64,000 nt of DNA. Origin: Parvibaculum lavamentivorans DS-1 (lineage in GTDB: Bacteria; Pseudomonadota; Alphaproteobacteria; Parvibaculales; Parvibaculaceae). The position numbers and the translations under genes were made by a program. Below are positions 8,859 through 19,998 of the stretch, in pieces. The notes below the pieces were generated by a model. The model ran no database searches. It saw only the letters and a program-made list of their open reading frames with translations, and was not told where the DNA came from. The stretch's first letter is position 1. Every line of letters begins with the position of its first letter. The stretch covers positions 2,835,001 through 2,899,000 of the forward strand of contig NC_009719.1 of assembly GCF_000017565.1 (NCBI RefSeq), read 5' to 3'.

Positions 8859-9049
8859 CGCTCTTCATTCATGAGATTGGAGGATCGCTCGCGCGACCCT
8901 TGAACCGGTTTTCTGTTTCTATTTTTAGAGAATTTTGGTTACCGCAACGTCAACGCGCGACGCTTGCCGGGGTCGGGACAACGAGGCAAAGTCCCCTCCG
9001 AAGCGCATTAGAAGCGCCAATGATTAATAGATTTTAACGGGAAACGCCG

Positions 9050-9823
9050 ATGACCGAATTCTGCAAGGCCGAGCGCGACGGGCACATGCTCATCGTCACC
9101 ATCAACCGACCTGAACGCATGAACGCCCTGCATCCACCGGCGAATTTCGAGCTGGAAAAGATTTTCGACGATTTCGCCGCCGATGACGACCTGTGGGTTG
9201 CGATCATCACGGGTGCGGGCGAACGCGCCTTCAGCGCCGGCAACGATCTTCGCTGGCAGGCCGAAGGCAACAAGATGGAAGTGCCGAAGTCGGGCTTCGC
9301 CGGTCTCACCTCGCGCTACGACCTGAACAAGCCGGTGATAGCGGCGGTCAATGGCGTTGCGATGGGCGGCGGGTTTGAAATCGCGCTTGCCTGCGACCTT
9401 ATCATTGCGTCGGACAACGCTGTTTTCGCTCTGCCCGAGCCGAAGGTCGGACTGGCCGCGCTTGCGGGCGGTCTGCACCGGCTGCCGCGACAGATCGGCA
9501 CCAAGCAGGCGCTGGGCATGATCCTTACCGGCCGCCAGGTGCCGGCGAAGGAGGGGAAAGAGCTCGGCTTCGTGAATGAAGTGGTTCCCGCTGCCGAGCT
9601 GCTCGACGCCGCGAAGCGCTGGGCAGGCCTCATCATGGAATGCTCGCCCATGTCCATTCGGGCGTCCAAGGAATCTGTCTATCAGGGGCTCAATGAAGCC
9701 AATCTGGAAAAGGCCGTCACCGGGAAGTACCCGGCGGTTGCGGCGCTTTTCAAAAGCGAGGATCTCATCGAGGGTCCGCGCGCCTTCGCCGAGAAGCGCA
9801 AGCCTGTCTGGAAGGGCAAGTAG
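9050..9823 (+). CDS. Enoyl-CoA hydratase (crotonase superfamily)
   Basis: A 257-residue crotonase with both catalytic acids typical of hydratases: the second oxyanion loop NGVAMGGGFEIALACD with its Glu, and ALPEPKVGLAALAGG with the second Glu. The first loop is GAGERAFSAGNDL. It resembles the carnitinyl/crotonobetainyl-CoA hydratase (CaiD-like) branch, but the substrate is not certain. It is cytoplasmic, hydrating 2-enoyl-CoA to 3-hydroxyacyl-CoA. A GGGAAAC Shine-Dalgarno precedes the ATG. The gene stands alone on the plus strand between two minus-strand genes. Confidence 0.9.
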   Translation: MTEFCKAERDGHMLIVTINRPERMNALHPPANFELEKIFDDFAADDDLWVAIITGAGERAFSAGNDLRWQAEGNKMEVPKSGFAGLTSRYDLNKPVIAAVNGVAMGGGFEIALACDLIIASDNAVFALPEPKVGLAALAGGLHRLPRQIGTKQALGMILTGRQVPAKEGKELGFVNEVVPAAELLDAAKRWAGLIMECSPMSIRASKESVYQGLNEANLEKAVTGKYPAVAALFKSEDLIEGPRAFAEKRKPVWKGK

Positions 9824-9828
9824 GCACG

Positions 9829-9871
9829 CAATAAAGAACCGGCCCTGCTGCGGGGGGAGCAGCAGAGCCGG
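9829..9871 (-). terminator. Terminator of the BTLCP lipoprotein gene
   Basis: A 13-base stem pairs 9839-9851 with 9859-9871 (arm CCGGCTCTGCTGC on the minus strand). One pair is a C-A mismatch read from the plus strand but a G-U pair read from the minus strand. On the minus strand it is followed by TTCTTTATT. This orientation fits termination of the minus-strand gene ending at 9923. Confidence 0.75.
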
Positions 9872-9922
9872 CCTCGACAGGACCAGGCCCCAAGCGGGGG
9901 GCGGCGGAGCCCGGTCAGCAGA

Positions 9923-10681
9923 TCAATTGAATGCGGCGGTGGGCGCGTCGGCCACGCCGGGGCGAAGCATGGCGGGATTGTTTTTCTGGATCGCGGCGAG
10001 GAAGGGCGCGGGTTCGCCGAGAGGCGGCAACTCGGCCTCAGCCACGTTCCTGAAGGTTCTGGCGTCAAGGTTCACCCAGAGATAGGGCCGTTCGCGCGAC
10101 TGCCGCTTTATCCACTGATAGGGAGCATCGGACCAGGCGACGATTTCCCAGTTCTTGTTGTCGAGAACGAATTCCCCGCGATCGGTTTTAACGACAAGAA
10201 CCGCGTGGCCGTCGCCATTCCATTCGCGCACGACGGAGAGCAGCAGGTTTTCCGGCGCCCAGCCGCGCTCGATCAGGAGCTTGCGCTTCATCAGCGCGAG
10301 GTCTTCGCAATCGCCGCCACTCGCGGTCGGGTAGGCCCACCATTCGGCGCGCTCATAAAGCGCGGAATCGGAGACCTGGGGGATCGAGCGGTTGACGTAG
10401 TCGTTGACCTTGTTGAGCTCGGCCCAGCTTTCGGGCGTCAGCGCCGTATCCTGCGGCATGTTTGTGCCACCGCCGCACTCATCGGGATTGCGCACGCAGA
10501 AGCCGATATAGCCGTAGGGCGCCATGACCCGCTGGCCCTCCGGCATCGAGGCGACAACCAGTTGCACGCTCGCCGTTTCATCAAAAAAAGAGGGGCCGAT
10601 GCTGCCGACCTGGCCGGGCGCCTGACAGCCGACCATTCCAGCAGCGACACTCACCAACGCAACGATACGCAACCACGACAT
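9923..10681 (-). CDS. BTLCP transglutaminase-like cysteine protease, lipoprotein
   Basis: A 252-residue protein with a lipoprotein signal (VSVAAGMVGC, Cys 19). The bacterial transglutaminase-like cysteine protease signature is clear: catalytic Cys in ASGGDCEDLALMKR, His in GDGHAVLVV, Asp in FVLDNKNWEI. In Pseudomonas, the BTLCP LapG cleaves the adhesin LapA and is controlled by the c-di-GMP receptor LapD. In alphaproteobacteria BTLCPs are common but mostly untested. The predicted lipid anchor is unlike soluble periplasmic LapG. A GAGGTGA Shine-Dalgarno supports the start. No LapD/LapA homologue is visible here. A 332-bp AT-rich region lies upstream. Confidence 0.88.
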   Translation of the reverse strand: MSWLRIVALVSVAAGMVGCQAPGQVGSIGPSFFDETASVQLVVASMPEGQRVMAPYGYIGFCVRNPDECGGGTNMPQDTALTPESWAELNKVNDYVNRSIPQVSDSALYERAEWWAYPTASGGDCEDLALMKRKLLIERGWAPENLLLSVVREWNGDGHAVLVVKTDRGEFVLDNKNWEIVAWSDAPYQWIKRQSRERPYLWVNLDARTFRNVAEAELPPLGEPAPFLAAIQKNNPAMLRPGVADAPTAAFN

Positions 10682-11013
10682 TTCCGTTCACCTCAACAAC
10701 CGACCCCGCCTATCGGGTCGCTGAGGTGCACAATGAAGCCAATGAATTTGCGTCTGTTTAAACGTGTGAAACGTCTTTGACGTAAATACGGATCAAAGTG
10801 GATTCAGCTTTTCATAAAATTTGAATCGTTTCTGTTTGAGTAAAATTTCGACCATTCACTCACACAGGAAAAATATTTTTCTTTCAACCACTTAGCCGAC
10901 ACGAATGTTTCAAGTGGAGGCAATGATTTGCCATAGGCGGGTGTTTCGCGAGACACTTTTACTCCTGCGGGATTTTTTGCGAAAAATTGTCGCAGCGCGG
11001 GTTTCTGCCGTTT
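10682..11013. other. AT-rich intergenic region upstream of BTLCP
   Basis: 332 bp, clearly AT-richer than the flanks, with no convincing open frame. It contains runs such as TTTTCATAAAATTTGAATCG and GATTTTTTGCGAAAAATTG. It holds the promoter of the minus-strand BTLCP gene and the 3' flank of the crotonase gene at 11014. A weak 6-bp inverted repeat (CCACTT/AAGTGG) lies near 10890-10916. I see no RNA gene or clear terminator. Confidence 0.5.
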
Positions 11014-11721
11014 TCAGGAGGGGTTTGCGCCGTTGAATGTCTCCGAATCCGCATTCAGTGTCTCACGCACGCCTTTAATGGTTAAGAACCTTTCCTTCCG
11101 CTTCGTATTCGCGAAGGCGGGTTGGGAAAGGGCGGCGAGGGCGGCGGCGCGAGTCTTTGCCGCTTCGATCAGCGTGGCGAGGGGCGCGGTCTCATCCAGG
11201 TAGCCCACAGCGACAGCTTCGGCGGGAGCGTAGATGCGAGCCTGGGTGACGGCCTCCGTCAGCCGGTTCCGTGCCAACCGGTCCCGCGCGAGCTCGAGGC
11301 CAAACACCGGCATGGTCATGCCGATGGCCACTTCCGGCAGGCCAATCTTGAAATCACCCTCTGCGCCGAGGCGGCTATCGGCGGCAAGCAGCAGCAAGCC
11401 GCCCGCAGCGAGGGCATGTCCGGTACAGGCGATGACGACGGGCAGGCGGAATTCGTAGAGGCGCATGAGAAGTTCGGCACCCGCAGTGACGAGCTTGCGC
11501 ACATTGTCGGGGCCAGAAGCCATGACCTCAAGGTCGAAGCCGGCGCAAAAGCGCTTCTCCCGGCCGGCAATCAGCACGGCTTTCGCTTCGTTCTCGGCGC
11601 GGTCAAGCGCGGCGTTGATCTCGCCGATCATGGCAAAGCCGAGCGCGTTGGCGCGGCCATCATCCATGGTCAGAATAGCGATATCGTTTTCGATGACGGT
11701 GGAAAGAATAGATCCGGTCAT
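11014..11721 (-). CDS. Divergent crotonase/enoyl-CoA hydratase family protein
   Basis: A crotonase-fold protein of about 235 residues. The loop AGREKRFCAGFDLEVMA is the first oxyanion segment and GHALAAGGLLLLAADSRLGA the second. The usual hydratase Glu in the second loop is replaced by Leu-rich sequence, so hydratase activity is doubtful and the reaction is unclear. Start at 11721 follows GGGGGG with 5-base spacing. The alternative start 4 codons earlier lies inside that Shine-Dalgarno region. It is convergent with no gene and follows the PilZ gene (43 bp upstream on the same strand), so the two may be cotranscribed. Confidence 0.82.
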   Translation of the reverse strand: MTGSILSTVIENDIAILTMDDGRANALGFAMIGEINAALDRAENEAKAVLIAGREKRFCAGFDLEVMASGPDNVRKLVTAGAELLMRLYEFRLPVVIACTGHALAAGGLLLLAADSRLGAEGDFKIGLPEVAIGMTMPVFGLELARDRLARNRLTEAVTQARIYAPAEAVAVGYLDETAPLATLIEAAKTRAAALAALSQPAFANTKRKERFLTIKGVRETLNADSETFNGANPS

Positions 11722-14439: not shown

Positions 14440-15111
14440 CTATCCGTGGCCTTCGTCCCCGCTGAGCACATTTTTCACAAGGCGCAGATAGGATCGTTCG
14501 CTTCTGAGTGGCGGCGTGCGGCCGGCGTGGCTGGCGATGCTCGAAATCGCTACCGGCGGTTTTTCGGCAACGATCCGGCGCGCAACGGTTTCGGCGGTGG
14601 GCTTGCGCTTCGGCATACGCTCCGGGTCGAGACGGCGCAGGCGGTCGATCCATTGACGAGCAAGCAAACGGTCGCCTATCCATTGGAACTGGTCGATCGG
14701 GACGGCGGCACCGAGAACGCGCGAGATAGAGCCGTCTTCATGCGCAAGCGGCAGCAGGATCATCTCGAAAGTTGCTTCGCGCTTGTCGTTGGTCGCTGCG
14801 GTATATTCTACAACGCTGATGGTTGCGTTGTTCGCCACATCGTCCAGCGCCTCTTTCAGGTTTTCCACGCAATCGTCCTGCCACATGGAAAGCATGTTGT
14901 GGCCGCGGAACTCCATCCCGTAGACGCTGCAAAGGCCGGTACCGGCCAGGCGGAAGCGGTAATCATTCCGGTCTTTCCGCTCGAGAATGAACACATAGGG
15001 CAGGATGCGGCGGATGCTGCCGGGCTCGATTTCGGCACGGCGCGGCGCCGGACGGCCCGCGCGGAGGGCGTTCCAATAGTCGAACAGCGCCTGATTGGTC
15101 TTGTGCTTCAT
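14440..15111 (-). CDS. PAS_5-family (PAS-like) regulatory protein
   Basis: A 223-residue protein. The region from FDYWNALRAGRPAPRRAEI through RILPYVFILERKDRNDYRFR to LAGTGLCSVYGMEF matches the PAS_5 sensor fold common in alphaproteobacteria. The C-terminal 60 residues are basic and disordered, ending SERSYLRLVKNVLSGDEGHG. I see no kinase, HTH or output domain, so it probably acts by protein contact or ligand sensing; PAS_5 proteins are mostly uncharacterised. The start was placed at 15111 (MKHKTN) after GGAACGAG; the frame open further upstream is Arg-rich without domain. Confidence 0.75.
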   Translation of the reverse strand: MKHKTNQALFDYWNALRAGRPAPRRAEIEPGSIRRILPYVFILERKDRNDYRFRLAGTGLCSVYGMEFRGHNMLSMWQDDCVENLKEALDDVANNATISVVEYTAATNDKREATFEMILLPLAHEDGSISRVLGAAVPIDQFQWIGDRLLARQWIDRLRRLDPERMPKRKPTAETVARRIVAEKPPVAISSIASHAGRTPPLRSERSYLRLVKNVLSGDEGHG

Positions 15112-15574: not shown

Positions 15575-16495
15575 ATGAAGACGATGAATTTCCCCCTTAC
15601 CAGCGGCCAGCTGGCTTTGACTTCGATGGTGGCTGGTGCCGCCCTGTTTCTTTATGCGTTCGCGGGCACGGCGCAGGCCGGTTCGTGCGGCGGCGGCTGC
15701 ACGCCTCCTCCGCCCCCGCCGAGCCATGATTGCGGCTGCGATGGCGGCGGCAAGGGTGGCGGCAAGAACTACAACAAGAATTACAACTACAACTACAACA
15801 AGAACACCAACGTCAATAACAACACCAATACCAACACGAACAACAACCACAACGAGAACAACATCGATGTGATTGTGAACGTGAACAATCAGGTGAGCGC
15901 CACCGCGACGGCGATCGCGAATGCCAATGCGGCGGCGGACAGCGCCTCGTCGGCCCTCGACCGTACAAGCTCGGTTGCCGTCGGCAATGGCAGCGGCGGC
16001 GGATATGGCGGCGGCGGTTCCAGCTTCTACGTCTCCGCGCCCCAGGCGGCACCGATGGGCTCGCTCAATGTCATCGTCCGCACCGCGCGCGTTGTGAAGC
16101 CGGTCAAGGCGATCTGCGTCAGCGCGAAGGGTCTTGAAGAAGCCGCGCGCATGAGCTCCAACGTCACGGAAGTCGATCCGGCCGATGATATCGAATTGTT
16201 CCATTGCGTTGCCGGCGACATGCTTGTGGCCACGCTGGGCCGCATGGCCGGCAAGGACGAAAACGCACGCGCAGATTACACGGGTGGCTATGTCATCGAG
16301 TGCCGCGCCGGCGAGGCCCTGCGCCATGGTTCGAACGGGATGCTTGCCTGCGTGCCGCAGCAGAAATATGGCTACAGCGAAATTCCCGCGCGCACTCGCA
16401 TGGCCTATGCGGAAGTTCTCATCCGCAAGAACGAACGCGGCGAGGAAGTGGCCGCCACGGGCGGCGCCTTCTTCTCGGGCGGTGTGGGCTACTAA
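15575..16495 (+). CDS. Secreted Asn/Gly-rich protein, possible surface polymer subunit
   Basis: A 306-residue protein with a signal peptide ending AFAGTAQA. The mature N-terminus has a Cys/Gly/Pro patch (CGGGCTPPPPPP, CGCDGGGKGGG), then an Asn-repeat tract at about residues 65-100 where Asn alternates with Tyr, Thr or Lys, then NNQVSATATAIANANAA. A flexible Gly/Ser tract leads to a C-terminal domain of about 140 residues with four Cys that could form two disulfides. ATG at 15575 follows GGGAG by 8 bases. Alternating polar/hydrophobic Asn-rich sequence is typical of fibre or adhesin proteins, and an HfaB/CsgG gene lies 2.5 kb away, so export to the surface is a reasonable inference. No homologue is recognised. 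Confidence 0.7.
   Translation: MKTMNFPLTSGQLALTSMVAGAALFLYAFAGTAQAGSCGGGCTPPPPPPSHDCGCDGGGKGGGKNYNKNYNYNYNKNTNVNNNTNTNTNNNHNENNIDVIVNVNNQVSATATAIANANAAADSASSALDRTSSVAVGNGSGGGYGGGGSSFYVSAPQAAPMGSLNVIVRTARVVKPVKAICVSAKGLEEAARMSSNVTEVDPADDIELFHCVAGDMLVATLGRMAGKDENARADYTGGYVIECRAGEALRHGSNGMLACVPQQKYGYSEIPARTRMAYAEVLIRKNERGEEVAATGGAFFSGGVGY
15766..15864 (+). repeat. Asn-codon repeat tract (AAC NNN)
   Basis: Within the secreted-protein gene, codons AAC/AAT alternate with TAC, AAG, ACC and GTC over about 100 bases. The repeat is biased enough to leave a long false open frame on the minus strand. Such tracts can change length by slippage. Confidence 0.75.
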
Positions 16496-16533
16496 ATCAG
16501 ACAACCGGGGTGGGGATCACCGGGGGCACGAGG

Positions 16534-16564
16534 AACGGGGAGAGCGAAAGCTCTCCCCGTTTTC
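16534..16564 (+). terminator. Rho-independent terminator after the Asn-rich gene
   Basis: A 12-bp stem with a GAAA tetraloop (16534-16545 with 16550-16561; arm AACGGGGAGAGC) ending in TTTT. It lies 38 bases past the plus-strand stop and before the convergent DUF2147 gene, suggesting the Asn-rich gene is transcribed alone. Confidence 0.9.
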
Positions 16565-16699
16565 GTTCTGGCGCGGAGCAAAGAAAAGCTCTCGCCGATT
16601 CCGCTGTCGCATTGCGAGGAATGTGAAGCCGCGAGACGGAAAACAGCGAGAGCAAGGGACGAACGGCGGAGGGGCAGCCGCTCGCGGTCTTGCCTGTGT

Positions 16700-17131
16700 T
16701 TACTCAACCCGTTCCCAGGTTTGCGAACGGCTCATTATTCCCTTGGAGCCGGTGACCTCAAGTTTCTGCCCGCCATCAAGGAGTGTCGCGCTCGCGTTTG
16801 CTGTCTTGCCGTTGGCGGGGCGCAGGATGGTGCCGCCGGTCCATTCGTTGCCTTTCGGCTTCACGTCCCAGAGAATAATCATGCCGACAAGCGGCTGGTT
16901 CTTCAGGTCACCGTCGCATTGCGAGCAGACGGTCTCACCGTCGTCCAGCAGTTCGATGATCTTCCCCTCAAGCGCACCATTGGCGTCGGTGATCTCCACG
17001 ACGGTTTTTGGGGCGCCGGTATCGGGATCGAAGGTCCGCCATTTGCCGAGGGGCGAGGGTGTGTCCGCTGCTGCGGGTATCGCAAACGCCGCCACGAGGA
17101 GCAGCGTTGCAGTCAAACCACGTAAAGCCAT
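16700..17131 (-). CDS. DUF2147 family exported protein (copy 1)
   Basis: A 143-residue protein with signal peptide (LRGLTATLLLVAAFAIPAAAD). The mature part is a DUF2147 domain: GKWRTFDPDTGAPKTVVEI, GALEGKIIEL, then CSQC, DLKNQPLVGMIILW and GGTILRPANGKTA. DUF2147 domains are small beta-barrels of unknown function, usually periplasmic. ATG at 17131 follows GGGAGAG. It is the last of three paralogs on this strand (see 17218 and 17751). All three keep a CxxC pair, which could bind metal or form a disulfide. Confidence 0.88.
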   Translation of the reverse strand: MALRGLTATLLLVAAFAIPAAADTPSPLGKWRTFDPDTGAPKTVVEITDANGALEGKIIELLDDGETVCSQCDGDLKNQPLVGMIILWDVKPKGNEWTGGTILRPANGKTANASATLLDGGQKLEVTGSKGIMSRSQTWERVE

Positions 17132-17217
17132 GTTTCTCTCCCCTGCGATCTTTGACATGTGTAGCACCGAACAAGCCGGAAGGCCGGTTCAAGTCTAGCC
17201 GCGTTTCATGAATCGTC

Positions 17218-17661
17218 TTATTCGATCCGTTCCCATTTCTGCGTAACGCGGAGCGGTCCCCGGCCGGTTGTCATCTGAAGGGCTGCGCCGCCCGGCACAA
17301 GCTCGAAATAGGCGGGGGAGACCATGCCTGTCGCGGGGCGAAGCAGGGCGCCGCTCCAGCCTTGTCCGTCCTGTCTTGCGTCCCAGATGATCTTCATGCC
17401 GGCGAGCGGCTTGTTGTGATTTTCGCCGGAGCAGCTCCAGCAGACCGCATCTTTCGGTCCGTCCGCGAGTTCCACTATATGGCCCTCAAGCGCGCCGCCT
17501 TTTTCCTCGATCTCGATGATCATGTGGGGCTGGCCGCTCTGCGGATGATAGATGCGCCATTTGCCGCCCGGCGACGATGTGTCGGCCGCGGCGGGCTGCA
17601 CCGCCGAAAAGGTACAGGCACCCGCCAGCAGCAGCGCCGCTCCAAAGCCTCTGACTGTCAT
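17218..17661 (-). CDS. DUF2147 family exported protein (copy 2)
   Basis: A 147-residue paralog of the flanking DUF2147 proteins. The signal peptide is VRGFGAALLLAGACTFSAVQPAAAD; the domain includes GKWRIYHPQSGQPHMIIEI, GALEGHIVEL, CWSC, NHNKPLAGMKIIWDA and GALLRPATGMV. GGGAGA lies before the ATG. The order and spacing suggest tandem duplication. Function unknown; periplasmic location is inferred. 86 bp separate it from copy 1. Confidence 0.88.
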   Translation of the reverse strand: MTVRGFGAALLLAGACTFSAVQPAAADTSSPGGKWRIYHPQSGQPHMIIEIEEKGGALEGHIVELADGPKDAVCWSCSGENHNKPLAGMKIIWDARQDGQGWSGALLRPATGMVSPAYFELVPGGAALQMTTGRGPLRVTQKWERIE

Positions 17662-17750
17662 GTTTTTCTCCCAGCCGTTATATTGGCATTGTGTGTGCCA
17701 CTATAACACCGCTCACACGGGCCGCCAAGAGGTTATGGCAGTCGGTGTGT

Positions 17751-18266
17751 CTATTTATTTTCGAGCTCGGCTGCCTCGTCCGCCCGTTCCCAGACTTGGG
17801 TGCGGCCAAGCCACGAAATCCCGACATAGCCCCGCACGTCGAGCTTCTCGCCTGCTTCGTCCATCTGGAGAGAGGCGCTGTAAATCCGGCCATTGCTCGG
17901 ATCGAGAATTTTGCCATCGGCCCATTGGTCGCCTTCGCGCTCAAAACCCCAAAGGACGGTCATGCCTTCTATCGGCTCACCTTTCAGCTCCCCCGGGCAA
18001 CTCTTGCAGATGGCCGGTCCTGTCTGATTTTCCTGATCAAGCACACGGACAACCTTGCCCTTCAGTTCGCCATTAACTTCGCTTATTTCGACGATGCCTT
18101 TCGCACGATCGGATTTATCGTCGATCACCCGCCAGGTGCCCACAGGAGTTTCCTGCGTAACCGCCTGGGCGAGGGTGCCGAGCGCAGTGTGGGAGACGAC
18201 AGCAACAAACACGGCGGATCCCACGGCGATGAATGTGTGACTGGCAAACATGTTCATTGTTCCCAT
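17751..18266 (-). CDS. DUF2147 family exported protein (copy 3)
   Basis: A 171-residue DUF2147 protein, the most canonical of the three: GTWRVIDDKSDRAKGIVEI, GELKGKVVRVLDQ, CKSC, GEPIEGMTVLWGF and WADGKILDPSNGRIYSA. The leader is FIAVGSAVFVAVVSHTALG. The exact start is uncertain: ATGs at 18266, 18257 and 18251 are all in frame, and the last has GGGA at a workable distance. It is the first gene of the DUF2147 array. The promoter lies between it and the riboswitch-controlled gene on the other strand. Confidence 0.85.
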   Translation of the reverse strand: MGTMNMFASHTFIAVGSAVFVAVVSHTALGTLAQAVTQETPVGTWRVIDDKSDRAKGIVEISEVNGELKGKVVRVLDQENQTGPAICKSCPGELKGEPIEGMTVLWGFEREGDQWADGKILDPSNGRIYSASLQMDEAGEKLDVRGYVGISWLGRTQVWERADEAAELENK

Positions 18267-18360
18267 GAATTCACGAAACGCCCCTTACGCTCCGGATTTC
18301 TTGGTTGTGAACGCGGGGTAAGGCTTCCAGTTCCGTATCGGGGTGCTATATATGCCGCAG

Positions 18361-18421
18361 GCAGGGACGACCCTGCGTGAGGCGCTTCACAGGCCTCATC
18401 CCATCGCGGGGACGGCCTCGC
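18361..18421 (+). promoter_or_regulatory. Guanidine-II (mini-ykkC) riboswitch
   Basis: Two short hairpins with ACGR tetraloops, the defining features of mini-ykkC RNAs: GCAGGG-ACGA-CCCTGC at 18361-18376 and GCGGGG-ACGG-CCTCGC at 18406-18421 (one G-U pair), 29 bases apart. The second hairpin is 23 bases before the ATG of an SMR exporter, with the AAGGAG Shine-Dalgarno in between. Guanidine-II RNAs bind guanidinium by loop-loop pairing and raise expression of exporters such as Gdx (SugE). Confidence 0.9.
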
Positions 18422-18443
18422 TTCTTCCGGAAGGAGAGGCGGC

Positions 18444-18761
18444 ATGGCCTGGATTTATCTTCTCATTGCAAGCGCGGCAGAAATCGTCTGGGCCTTCACG
18501 TTGAAGGCGAGCGAGGGCTTTACGCGGCCATCGATGATTGCACTGAATATCGCGGCGCTGCTGGTGGCGGTCTGGTTTCTCGTGCAGGCGATGCGTACCC
18601 TGCCGCTCGGCACTGCCTATGCCGTCTGGACGGGTATAGGCGTCGTCGGTGCCGCCATACTCGGCGTTATTCTTCTGGGAGAGAGTGCTTCGCCAGCGCG
18701 GCTCGGGGCGATTACCTTAATCGTCGCCGGGGTCGTGATGCTCAAAGTGGTGGAGGGCTAG
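18444..18761 (+). CDS. sugE: SMR-family guanidinium exporter (Gdx/SugE type)
   Basis: A 105-residue four-helix SMR transporter. The membrane-embedded Glu essential for the family is at residue 13 ([17 protein letters not shown]). Segments [18 protein letters not shown] and [15 protein letters not shown] match the SugE/Gdx subgroup, which exports guanidinium as a dimer by proton antiport, rather than the EmrE drug exporters. The guanidine-II riboswitch upstream agrees and makes the function quite secure. An AAGGAG is about 9 bases before the ATG. It sits alone on the plus strand in the inner membrane. Confidence 0.92.
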
Positions 18762-18776
18762 GCCGGCCGTCCGGCG

Positions 18777-18805
18777 GAAAAAAGGGGGAGGGCACAGCCC
18801 TCCCC
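18777..18805 (-). terminator. Terminator of the HfaB gene
   Basis: A 9-bp perfect stem (arm GGGGAGGGC; 18785-18793 with 18797-18805), which on the minus strand is followed by TTTTTT. It lies 165 bases past the stop of the minus-strand HfaB-like gene. It has no U-run in the plus direction. Confidence 0.8.
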
Positions 18806-18969
18806 AAGTGGTCTTCCGGAATGAGACGAAACTCAAAAAGGCCCCGTTCCGGTTGGCGGGCAAAGCTCCGCCGTAGCTCTCAAGGTTCGACCGGAGGCCG
18901 CCGGGCCGAACAGGCTTGAGGGGTTGAACCGGCGGCGGTGCCGCCGGTAATGCTGTTTTGGTCAGAGGA

Positions 18970-19998
18970 TCAGTAGGCGCCGCCGCGAAGGCCGCTGTCT
19001 TCAAAGGCGAGCTCGCTGTAGTAGGCGTAGGGTTCGGTTTCCGGCTGCTTTGCCGCCATGCGCGCGGCGGGCTTTACCTTGGCGCCGGGATTGGCCTGGC
19101 GGTAGTCGATCTCGCCCATCGGGTCCTTGTTGCCAGGGAAACGGGCGCAGTCGGCGGGCTTCACGCCGTAGAGCGGAACGAGGAGCTTCAGGACCGCACG
19201 TTCGACAACCGCACGCACCGCGAGCTGGATCGGCTCCTGGGCGCTGGAGCCCACACCGAGCGAGAACAGGTTGCCGCCGAAGAAGTCGAACACACCAGCC
19301 TTGATTTCGCGGCCGACGATCTGCTTCTGGTAGGACACATAGTCGACGACTTCGAGCGTACGGCTGTTCACGAGGCGCAGGTCGAGGCCGATATTCATGA
19401 CGTAGGTTGCGGCCGACGCATTCGCCGCAGCGCCCATATCGCCGCCTTCGGCGTAGGAGCCGTTGATGCCGCCGGACTGGATGTTGAAGTTCAGTTCGGT
19501 GATGCCGCCGACGAGATAGTAGTCGCTGCCGCGGATTTCGCCCGCATAGATCTTACGGTATTCGCCGTCGACCGCGTCGCCGATAAGCTTGTTGTTCGTA
19601 TATTTCATCTCCAGTTCGGAGATCGACGTGTCGTAGCGCTCCACCAGCGGCACACCGGCCTTGCCGAGCGCGGACATCGCCATCAGCGAGGCGCCCTGAG
19701 TGACCTTCATGCCGGTGCCGTCGGCTTCGGCCTTGCCCGTGTAGTCGCGGATGTTGCCCACGGCGATACGCGTCGTATTGGCTGCGGACGGCACGTGGCC
19801 GGCGAGGCAGCGAAGCGCGCTGGAATAGGGGGTTTCGTTGGTGATGACGGGTGCGTTGCCGATCGGCGCCACGTAACGGCCATCCGAACCCGCATTGGCG
19901 CTGACGCAGCCGGTGAGGGCGAATGCCATGGCGAGGGCGCCTAGCGTACGCTTGGGTGCTCCCTTCTTCTTCGCGATCGACAGAACCGTTGTAAGCAC
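18970..19998 (-). CDS. hfaB: CsgG/HfaB-family outer-membrane secretion lipoprotein
   Basis: A 342-residue protein with lipobox ALTGC (Cys 31). The CsgG/HfaB fold is clear: TRIAVGNIRDYTGK, KVTQGASLMAMSALGKAG, PLVERYDTSISELEMKY, GSDYYLVGGITELNFNIQSGG, DLRLVNSRTLEVVDYVSYQKQIVGRE, FFGGNLFSLGVG. HfaB anchors holdfast in Caulobacter by secreting HfaA/HfaD. CsgG secretes curli. The GTG start is supported by AGGAGG at 5 bases. There is no HfaA or HfaD beside it, but the Asn-rich protein at 15575 is a candidate cargo. The C-terminal 50 residues are extra and poorly conserved. Confidence 0.92.
   Translation of the reverse strand: MLTTVLSIAKKKGAPKRTLGALAMAFALTGCVSANAGSDGRYVAPIGNAPVITNETPYSSALRCLAGHVPSAANTTRIAVGNIRDYTGKAEADGTGMKVTQGASLMAMSALGKAGVPLVERYDTSISELEMKYTNNKLIGDAVDGEYRKIYAGEIRGSDYYLVGGITELNFNIQSGGINGSYAEGGDMGAAANASAATYVMNIGLDLRLVNSRTLEVVDYVSYQKQIVGREIKAGVFDFFGGNLFSLGVGSSAQEPIQLAVRAVVERAVLKLLVPLYGVKPADCARFPGNKDPMGEIDYRQANPGAKVKPAARMAAKQPETEPYAYYSELAFEDSGLRGGAY

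Follow-up and report, generated by a model that had tools for sequence, protein, structure and literature searches.

The attachment of polar polysaccharide adhesins to the cell has been described as poorly understood and largely underexplored (PMC6707917). In the closest described system, that of Caulobacter crescentus, the gene CCNA_02722 was named hfaE by Hershey et al. in 2019 as encoding a holdfast-anchoring protein. The product, described as hypothetical, had a signal peptide, belonged to no known family, and was identified in many stalked bacteria, and an hfaE deletion caused shedding of holdfast, which was left on glass with few cells (PMC6372794). The same locus tag is mentioned in PMC11853020. 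Here we analyzed a 64,000-nucleotide stretch of DNA, hereafter the window, from Parvibaculum lavamentivorans DS-1 (positions 2,835,001 to 2,899,000 on the single 3,914,745-bp contig), in which a gene for an Asn-rich protein of 306 residues (15575-16495, plus strand) is followed by a full-length hfaB gene (18970-19998, minus strand). A first-pass annotation had proposed that the Asn-rich protein could be cargo of HfaB and was a candidate for an undescribed surface polymer. We conclude that the protein is very probably a member of the HfaE family of holdfast anchors that works with the neighboring HfaB.

The Asn-rich gene was defined by an open reading frame, by alignment, and by homology to proteins of Caulobacter-type loci. 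The frame is open from 15566 or 15575 to 16495, and the ATG at 15575, which is common to relatives, gives the 306-residue product. A hydrophobic N terminus ending in AQA, conserved in relatives and judged by eye to be a signal peptide, precedes CxxxC and CxC segments around a run of Pro, with further Cys residues at 38, 42, 53, and 55. Residues 65 to 95 (15767-15859, plus strand) form an Asn ladder in which Asn occupies every second position 16 times in a row, an alternation that was never reached when the tract was shuffled 20,000 times or the whole protein 5,000 times. An Ala/Ser/Gly-rich linker then leads to a C-terminal domain with four Cys (16043-16492, plus strand) that ends in FFSGGVGY and from which the search profiles A2, A3, and A5 were built. 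In an alignment of 21 sequences, consisting of the protein from the window and members 33 to 91% identical to it, Cys 181, 211, 243, and 259 were invariant, as was the GGVG tail, and the final residue was Tyr in all but one. The tail was kept in 58 of 59 family members when a wider set was considered, the sole member without it being L131:6864-8114 (G178; L082 in the tail survey). In another member, L127:5424-6680 (G175), the domain looks circularly permuted by eye, with the CFERSLLRKYGPG segment before instead of after the CVDDKG segment. No match to the 306-residue protein was found in Pfam or NCBIfam, and no plasmid copy of the gene was found. Thus, the earlier description of an exported Asn-rich protein with a four-Cys C-terminal domain held.

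The hfaB product is a CsgG-type outer-membrane secretion lipoprotein. It matched NF037935, "holdfast anchoring protein HfaB," with 393 bits (cutoff, 300) over profile positions 2 to 263 of 264, it matched the CsgG chains of solved structures with an E value of 1.5e-9, and it contains LTGC, a lipobox-like sequence recognized by eye. The gene is the sole match to NF037935 in the P. lavamentivorans DS-1 genome; a second, distant HfaB-like gene of 152 bits was seen outside the hfaB locus in another genome of the genus (L068, G013). The HfaE-type gene and hfaB are convergent and their stop codons lie approximately 2.5 kb apart, in agreement with the full-length HfaB-like gene noted at that distance before.

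Co-occurrence of the four-Cys domain (profiles A2, A3, and A5) and HfaB (NF037935) was compared across three sets of genomes. In the order to which Parvibaculum belongs, the domain was found in 35 of 40 genomes and HfaB in 36 (34 over the cutoff), and all 35 domain genomes had both. In a draw of 385 genomes from the class, for which no more than 10 domain candidates per genome were scored, the domain was found in 17 genomes and HfaB over the cutoff in 20, and the 20 included all 17; 42 of the 385 genomes had any HfaB match at an E value of 0.001. Five of the 17 came from the window's own family, the source of the profiles (G000, G009, and G011 gave rows of A3, G034 is apparently the source of row L002, and G003 is closely related), and 12 came from outside it. 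Among 120 genomes of the order of genome G314, presumably the Caulobacterales by its HfaA, HfaB, and HfaD genes, 63 had the domain and 57 had HfaB over the cutoff, and 56 had both; two genomes, G314 and G101, gave profile rows. Fisher tests, in which kinship was ignored, gave P values of 6e-27 for the class draw and 4e-25 for the order of G314. We conclude that the co-occurrence check proposed in the first-pass annotation was strongly positive.

Linkage did not account for the association. In the 56 genomes with both genes, the two lay within 20 kb of each other in 35, shared a contig but were separated by 180 kb to 1.2 Mb in 6, and were on different contigs in 15, a few of which may reflect assembly breaks. 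Because co-occurrence held even where the genes were unlinked, chance adjacency of the HfaE-type gene and hfaB was rejected, and the best reading, which is strongly supported, is that the protein is cargo of HfaB, or a partner of it, distinct from HfaA and HfaD. One could instead suppose that the two genes travel together through inherited gene order alone, with no functional link. In the window and its relatives (a scan of genome contigs gave 10: six Parvibaculum, one other Parvibaculaceae, two Rhodobiaceae, and one Alphaproteobacteria), the genes sit within a conserved block in the order enoyl-CoA hydratase, PilZ, GMC oxidoreductase, PAS_5, HfaE-type gene, a variable stretch, hfaB, DsbA-like, rhomboid, and TetR. 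Most of this order was preserved in these relatives and in the family's more distant genera, except for some single genes that were not found and some loci cut by contig ends. Moreover, G001 and G002 pass directly from the GMC gene to the DsbA-like gene, with PAS_5, the HfaE-type gene, and hfaB gone together in one clean gap; this triple gap counts as one event because the genes are linked in that family. Nevertheless, in family f5 (G043, G178, G356, and G276) the two parts of the block lie on separate contigs and neither has been lost, and G449 of genus g290 has neither gene, though the other six g290 genomes that have the domain also have HfaB, unlinked to it. With the distant and separate-contig pairs above, these cases make inherited order alone very improbable. 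Three further genomes were set aside as evidence of joint loss: G029, in which the start of hfaB is cut by a contig end, and G015, in which the close orthologue of the flanking DsbA-like gene is also missing, each a possible assembly gap, and G434 of genus g279, which has neither gene but whose genus includes five other genomes with the domain and no HfaB over the cutoff.

The position of the four-Cys gene in other genomes pointed to its identity. In G314, the gene is convergent to an operon of hfaA (137 bits), hfaB, and hfaD (366 bits), with an M16 peptidase gene between them and a divergent PAS_5 gene beyond; the Caulobacter-like genomes G477, G428, G473, and G468 have the same layout plus a GMC gene. 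When the profile of family f1 (A3) was aligned with that of the members from the order of G314 (A7), which share no rows, the match was 99.5% with an E value of 1.2e-22, and a BLASTP comparison of the 306-residue protein with one Caulobacter-like member gave an E value of 3e-9 at 29% identity. In G527, the four-Cys gene is by our count the tenth gene after hfaB, where one of the ten (L208, near 9250-9996) was counted from open frames; hfaB of C. crescentus is CCNA_02712 (PMC12340889), such that the count fits CCNA_02722. The spacing also equals that between CC2628, which is hfaA in an older list of signature proteins, and CC2639, described there as hypothetical and present in Caulobacter, Oceanicaulis, and Maricaulis (PMC2241609). 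The family resembles C. crescentus HfaE in being exported, in belonging to no known family, in lying about ten genes from hfaB, and in co-occurring with HfaB, with a homologous protein at the matching place in Caulobacter-like genomes. We conclude that the four-Cys family probably corresponds by place and description to HfaE and hence is not undescribed, contrary to the earlier proposal, the name having been given in 2019 (PMC6372794).

The Parvibaculum protein differs from the Caulobacter-like members in its sequence, which is 29% identical to that of the member compared, and in the absence of a CNERSLLRR segment, and its genome differs from that of C. crescentus in its complement of anchor genes. 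No match to HfaA (NF037934) or HfaD (NF037936) was found in the whole P. lavamentivorans genome, and an HfaA profile of our own, A6, found nothing there at an E value of 1, in line with the earlier statement that neither was visible. The 306-residue protein is like HfaA and HfaD in being exported, repetitive, and associated with HfaB, but it matches no NCBIfam model and hence neither NF037934 nor NF037936. Across 45 genomes, HfaA scored over its cutoff in 14 and HfaD in 2. A further 9 genomes had weaker HfaD matches, and in three of them (f121) the match lies directly beside hfaB. In the 20 HfaB genomes of the class draw, the four-Cys domain was found in 17, HfaA over the cutoff in 12, and HfaD over the cutoff in 2, making HfaE the most widely kept HfaB partner among those tested. 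By genus, the counts for HfaA were 0 of 16 genomes in g1, the genus of the window, 0 of 6 in g3, 0 of 1 in g4, and 2 of 2 in g5, and HfaD was found not even weakly in those of g1, g3, and g4.

To compare the ladders, the longest run of Asn at alternate positions was recorded for 59 loci, one gene each. Runs had 14 to 25 steps in g1 (19 of 19 loci) and 9 to 15 in g3 (6 of 6), 3 in g4 (one locus), and 2 in both g5 loci; elsewhere they had 1 step in f121 (three loci), 2 to 12 in f5 (four loci), 2 or 3 in f4 (two loci), 1 in f137, and 7 and 9 in f63. In 19 members from the order of G314 the range was 1 to 6, against 16 in the window. An initial impression that the Asn ladder was confined to the window's own family was wrong, as shorter ladders recur elsewhere. 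Ladders of at least 9 steps were present in all 25 loci of g1 and g3, genera without HfaA, whereas g5 keeps HfaA and lacks the ladder. Against a strict link, g4 has no HfaA yet a ladder of only 3 steps, and L080 (f5, 12 steps) and L119 (f63, 9 steps) have ladders despite HfaA. We conclude that the connection between a long ladder and the absence of HfaA is only suggestive.

Several observations weigh against the assignment of the protein as an HfaE-type anchor that works with HfaB. First, the identification was drawn from position, gene count, and description rather than from the sequence of C. crescentus HfaE. Second, HfaB scored over the cutoff without the domain in three genomes of the class draw, G391, G118, and G232; G391 failed also with the broader profile A5, and G118 and G232 were tested with A3 only. 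G391, which was also the one genome of the order of G314 with HfaB over the cutoff and no domain, is the clearest counterexample. Third, in the order of G314, 7 of 63 domain genomes had no HfaB over the cutoff. Five of these belong to g279 (G420, G429, G439, G464, and G478) and had only a CsgG-type match of 247 to 252 bits, G516 had the domain and no HfaB, and the domain match of G220 was weak (E value, 8.6e-4) and likely due to chance. Fourth, an attempt to model the C-terminal domain with 11 close sequences as input failed, with a mean predicted local distance difference test score of 37, and a search of solved structures with A5 returned no convincing relative, the single match (E value, 0.33) being taken as chance. 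Fifth, long ladders were confined to g1, g3, and the single members L080 and L119, and many members have none. Finally, the P. lavamentivorans genome encodes two Poly_export proteins that are 30 to 31% identical to the exporter in a cluster of G527 that, from its gene order, we take to be hfs-like, and 48 to 57% identical to another exporter of G527, such that the anchored material may or may not be a holdfast-like polysaccharide.

Some of these exceptions may have explanations of their own. Two HfaB copies are present in G488, a g279 genome assembled in a single contig, and in G420 short ends of HfaB sit at two contig edges, so the g279 drafts may have lost HfaB in assembly. G010 was dropped as a further case of HfaB without the domain, the genome being 70% complete. 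The gene for one of the two Poly_export proteins clusters with genes for a flippase-type and an O-antigen-ligase-type protein. In favor of an anchor, P. lavamentivorans cultures at high surfactant concentrations need an added solid surface, which is thought to support a biofilm (PMC3368416). Among side observations, at least two HfaB copies over the cutoff were found in each of G448, G438, G488, G517, and G276, hfaB of G276 has one internal TAG, and locus L117 of G391 (8898-11185) has hfaA and hfaB with an adjoining AxGN-repeat gene that has no NCBIfam match, and no detectable HfaE.

An Asn-rich exported protein beside a CsgG-type pore recalls curli, in which CsgA and CsgB are Asn/Gln rich and pass through CsgG. 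However, the pore encoded in the window matched HfaB with 393 bits and the CsgG model with only 37 (cutoff, 505), and no curlin, CsgE, or CsgF was found among the six genes of the scanned interval, the rest of the genome not having been searched for them. A rival reading is that the HfaB cargo builds a free-standing, amyloid-like surface fiber with no link to polysaccharide. Perfect Asn alternation in all 25 g1 and g3 loci, the pore beside the gene, and a genome in which no close HfsD-type exporter was seen would all suit a fiber of this kind. However, the C. crescentus family member is an anchor by phenotype, if the identification holds, and a fiber role of the ladder is not general because many family members lack a long one. 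We consider a free-standing fiber unlikely. The earlier claim of an alternating Asn tract was borne out, whereas the claim of a surface polymer is unproven; the mutant phenotype points to anchoring, and the long ladder occurs in only part of the family.

A different way in which the protein could depend on HfaB is as a periplasmic or outer-membrane accessory, for instance its chaperone or gate, and not as cargo. Tight co-occurrence with HfaB, a Cys-rich domain, and a nearly invariant C-terminal tail would be expected of an accessory as well. Its long, low-complexity, repetitive middle is instead usual for surface proteins, and a conserved domain joined to a fast-changing repetitive part is usual in surface adhesins. 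Furthermore, HfaE of C. crescentus is reported by Chepkwony, Hardy, and Brun (2022, J Bacteriol) to be HfaB dependent, to co-localize with holdfast, and to form species resistant to sodium dodecyl sulfate. An accessory role is, in our judgment, quite improbable.

The likely course by which the HfaE-type protein would act as an anchor is as follows. The Sec system would export the protein, which would remain unfolded in the periplasm, and the HfaB pore would pass it through the outer membrane, as co-occurrence suggests. Outside the cell, the repetitive middle part may self-associate, with the Asn ladder favoring stacked beta strands, and the four-Cys domain, probably disulfide bonded, would, together with the nearly invariant GGVG tail, fix the assembly to either HfaB or a surface polysaccharide. 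The polymer would thereby stay tied to the cell. In Parvibaculum, where the function of the protein is inferred, HfaB and HfaE would anchor without HfaA and HfaD. A fuller proposal joins three parts: that the anchor of Parvibaculum, g3, and g4 has been reduced to HfaB and HfaE, that the ladder of g1 and g3 has assumed the fiber-forming role of HfaA and HfaD after their loss, and that GGVG is a signal for HfaB recognition or anchoring. Taken together, these parts are possible but somewhat doubtful, and g4, with no HfaA and a ladder of 3 steps, does not fit replacement by the ladder.

The interval between the HfaE-type gene and hfaB holds three tandem DUF2147 genes (16700-18266, minus strand) and one SMR transporter gene, none of which the first-pass annotation mentions; relatives have zero to two DUF2147 genes there. 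The stretch varies from approximately 0.8 to 9.7 kb among relatives and looks like an insertion hot spot. A hairpin scan, which found 18 terminator-like sites against 5.8 expected, placed one 3' of the HfaE-type gene (16537-16556, plus strand) and one with a T run 3' of hfaB (18805-18785, minus strand), consistent with the earlier observation that the two genes are on opposite strands with separate terminators. On the other side, the divergent neighbor of the HfaE-type gene encodes a single-domain PAS_5 protein (14440-15111, minus strand) that scored 79 bits against MopJ (cutoff, 200). In both orders, many loci have the PAS_5 gene beside that for the HfaE-type protein, and the PAS_5 product is a possible regulator of the anchor.

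A literature search that covered few subscription papers found no account of HfaE in Parvibaculum, and the extension of HfaE well outside Caulobacter-type bacteria looks new. Because HfaA and HfaD are undetectable in Parvibaculum, our results suggest a reduced anchor of HfaB and HfaE, without the usual partners and with an Asn ladder of unusual length. Residues for mutation are suggested by the conserved domain and tail, and Parvibaculum would offer a natural anchor for the study of HfaB and HfaE without HfaA and HfaD. If the fuller proposal above holds, HfaE, rather than HfaA or HfaD, would be the HfaB client that has been kept most widely.

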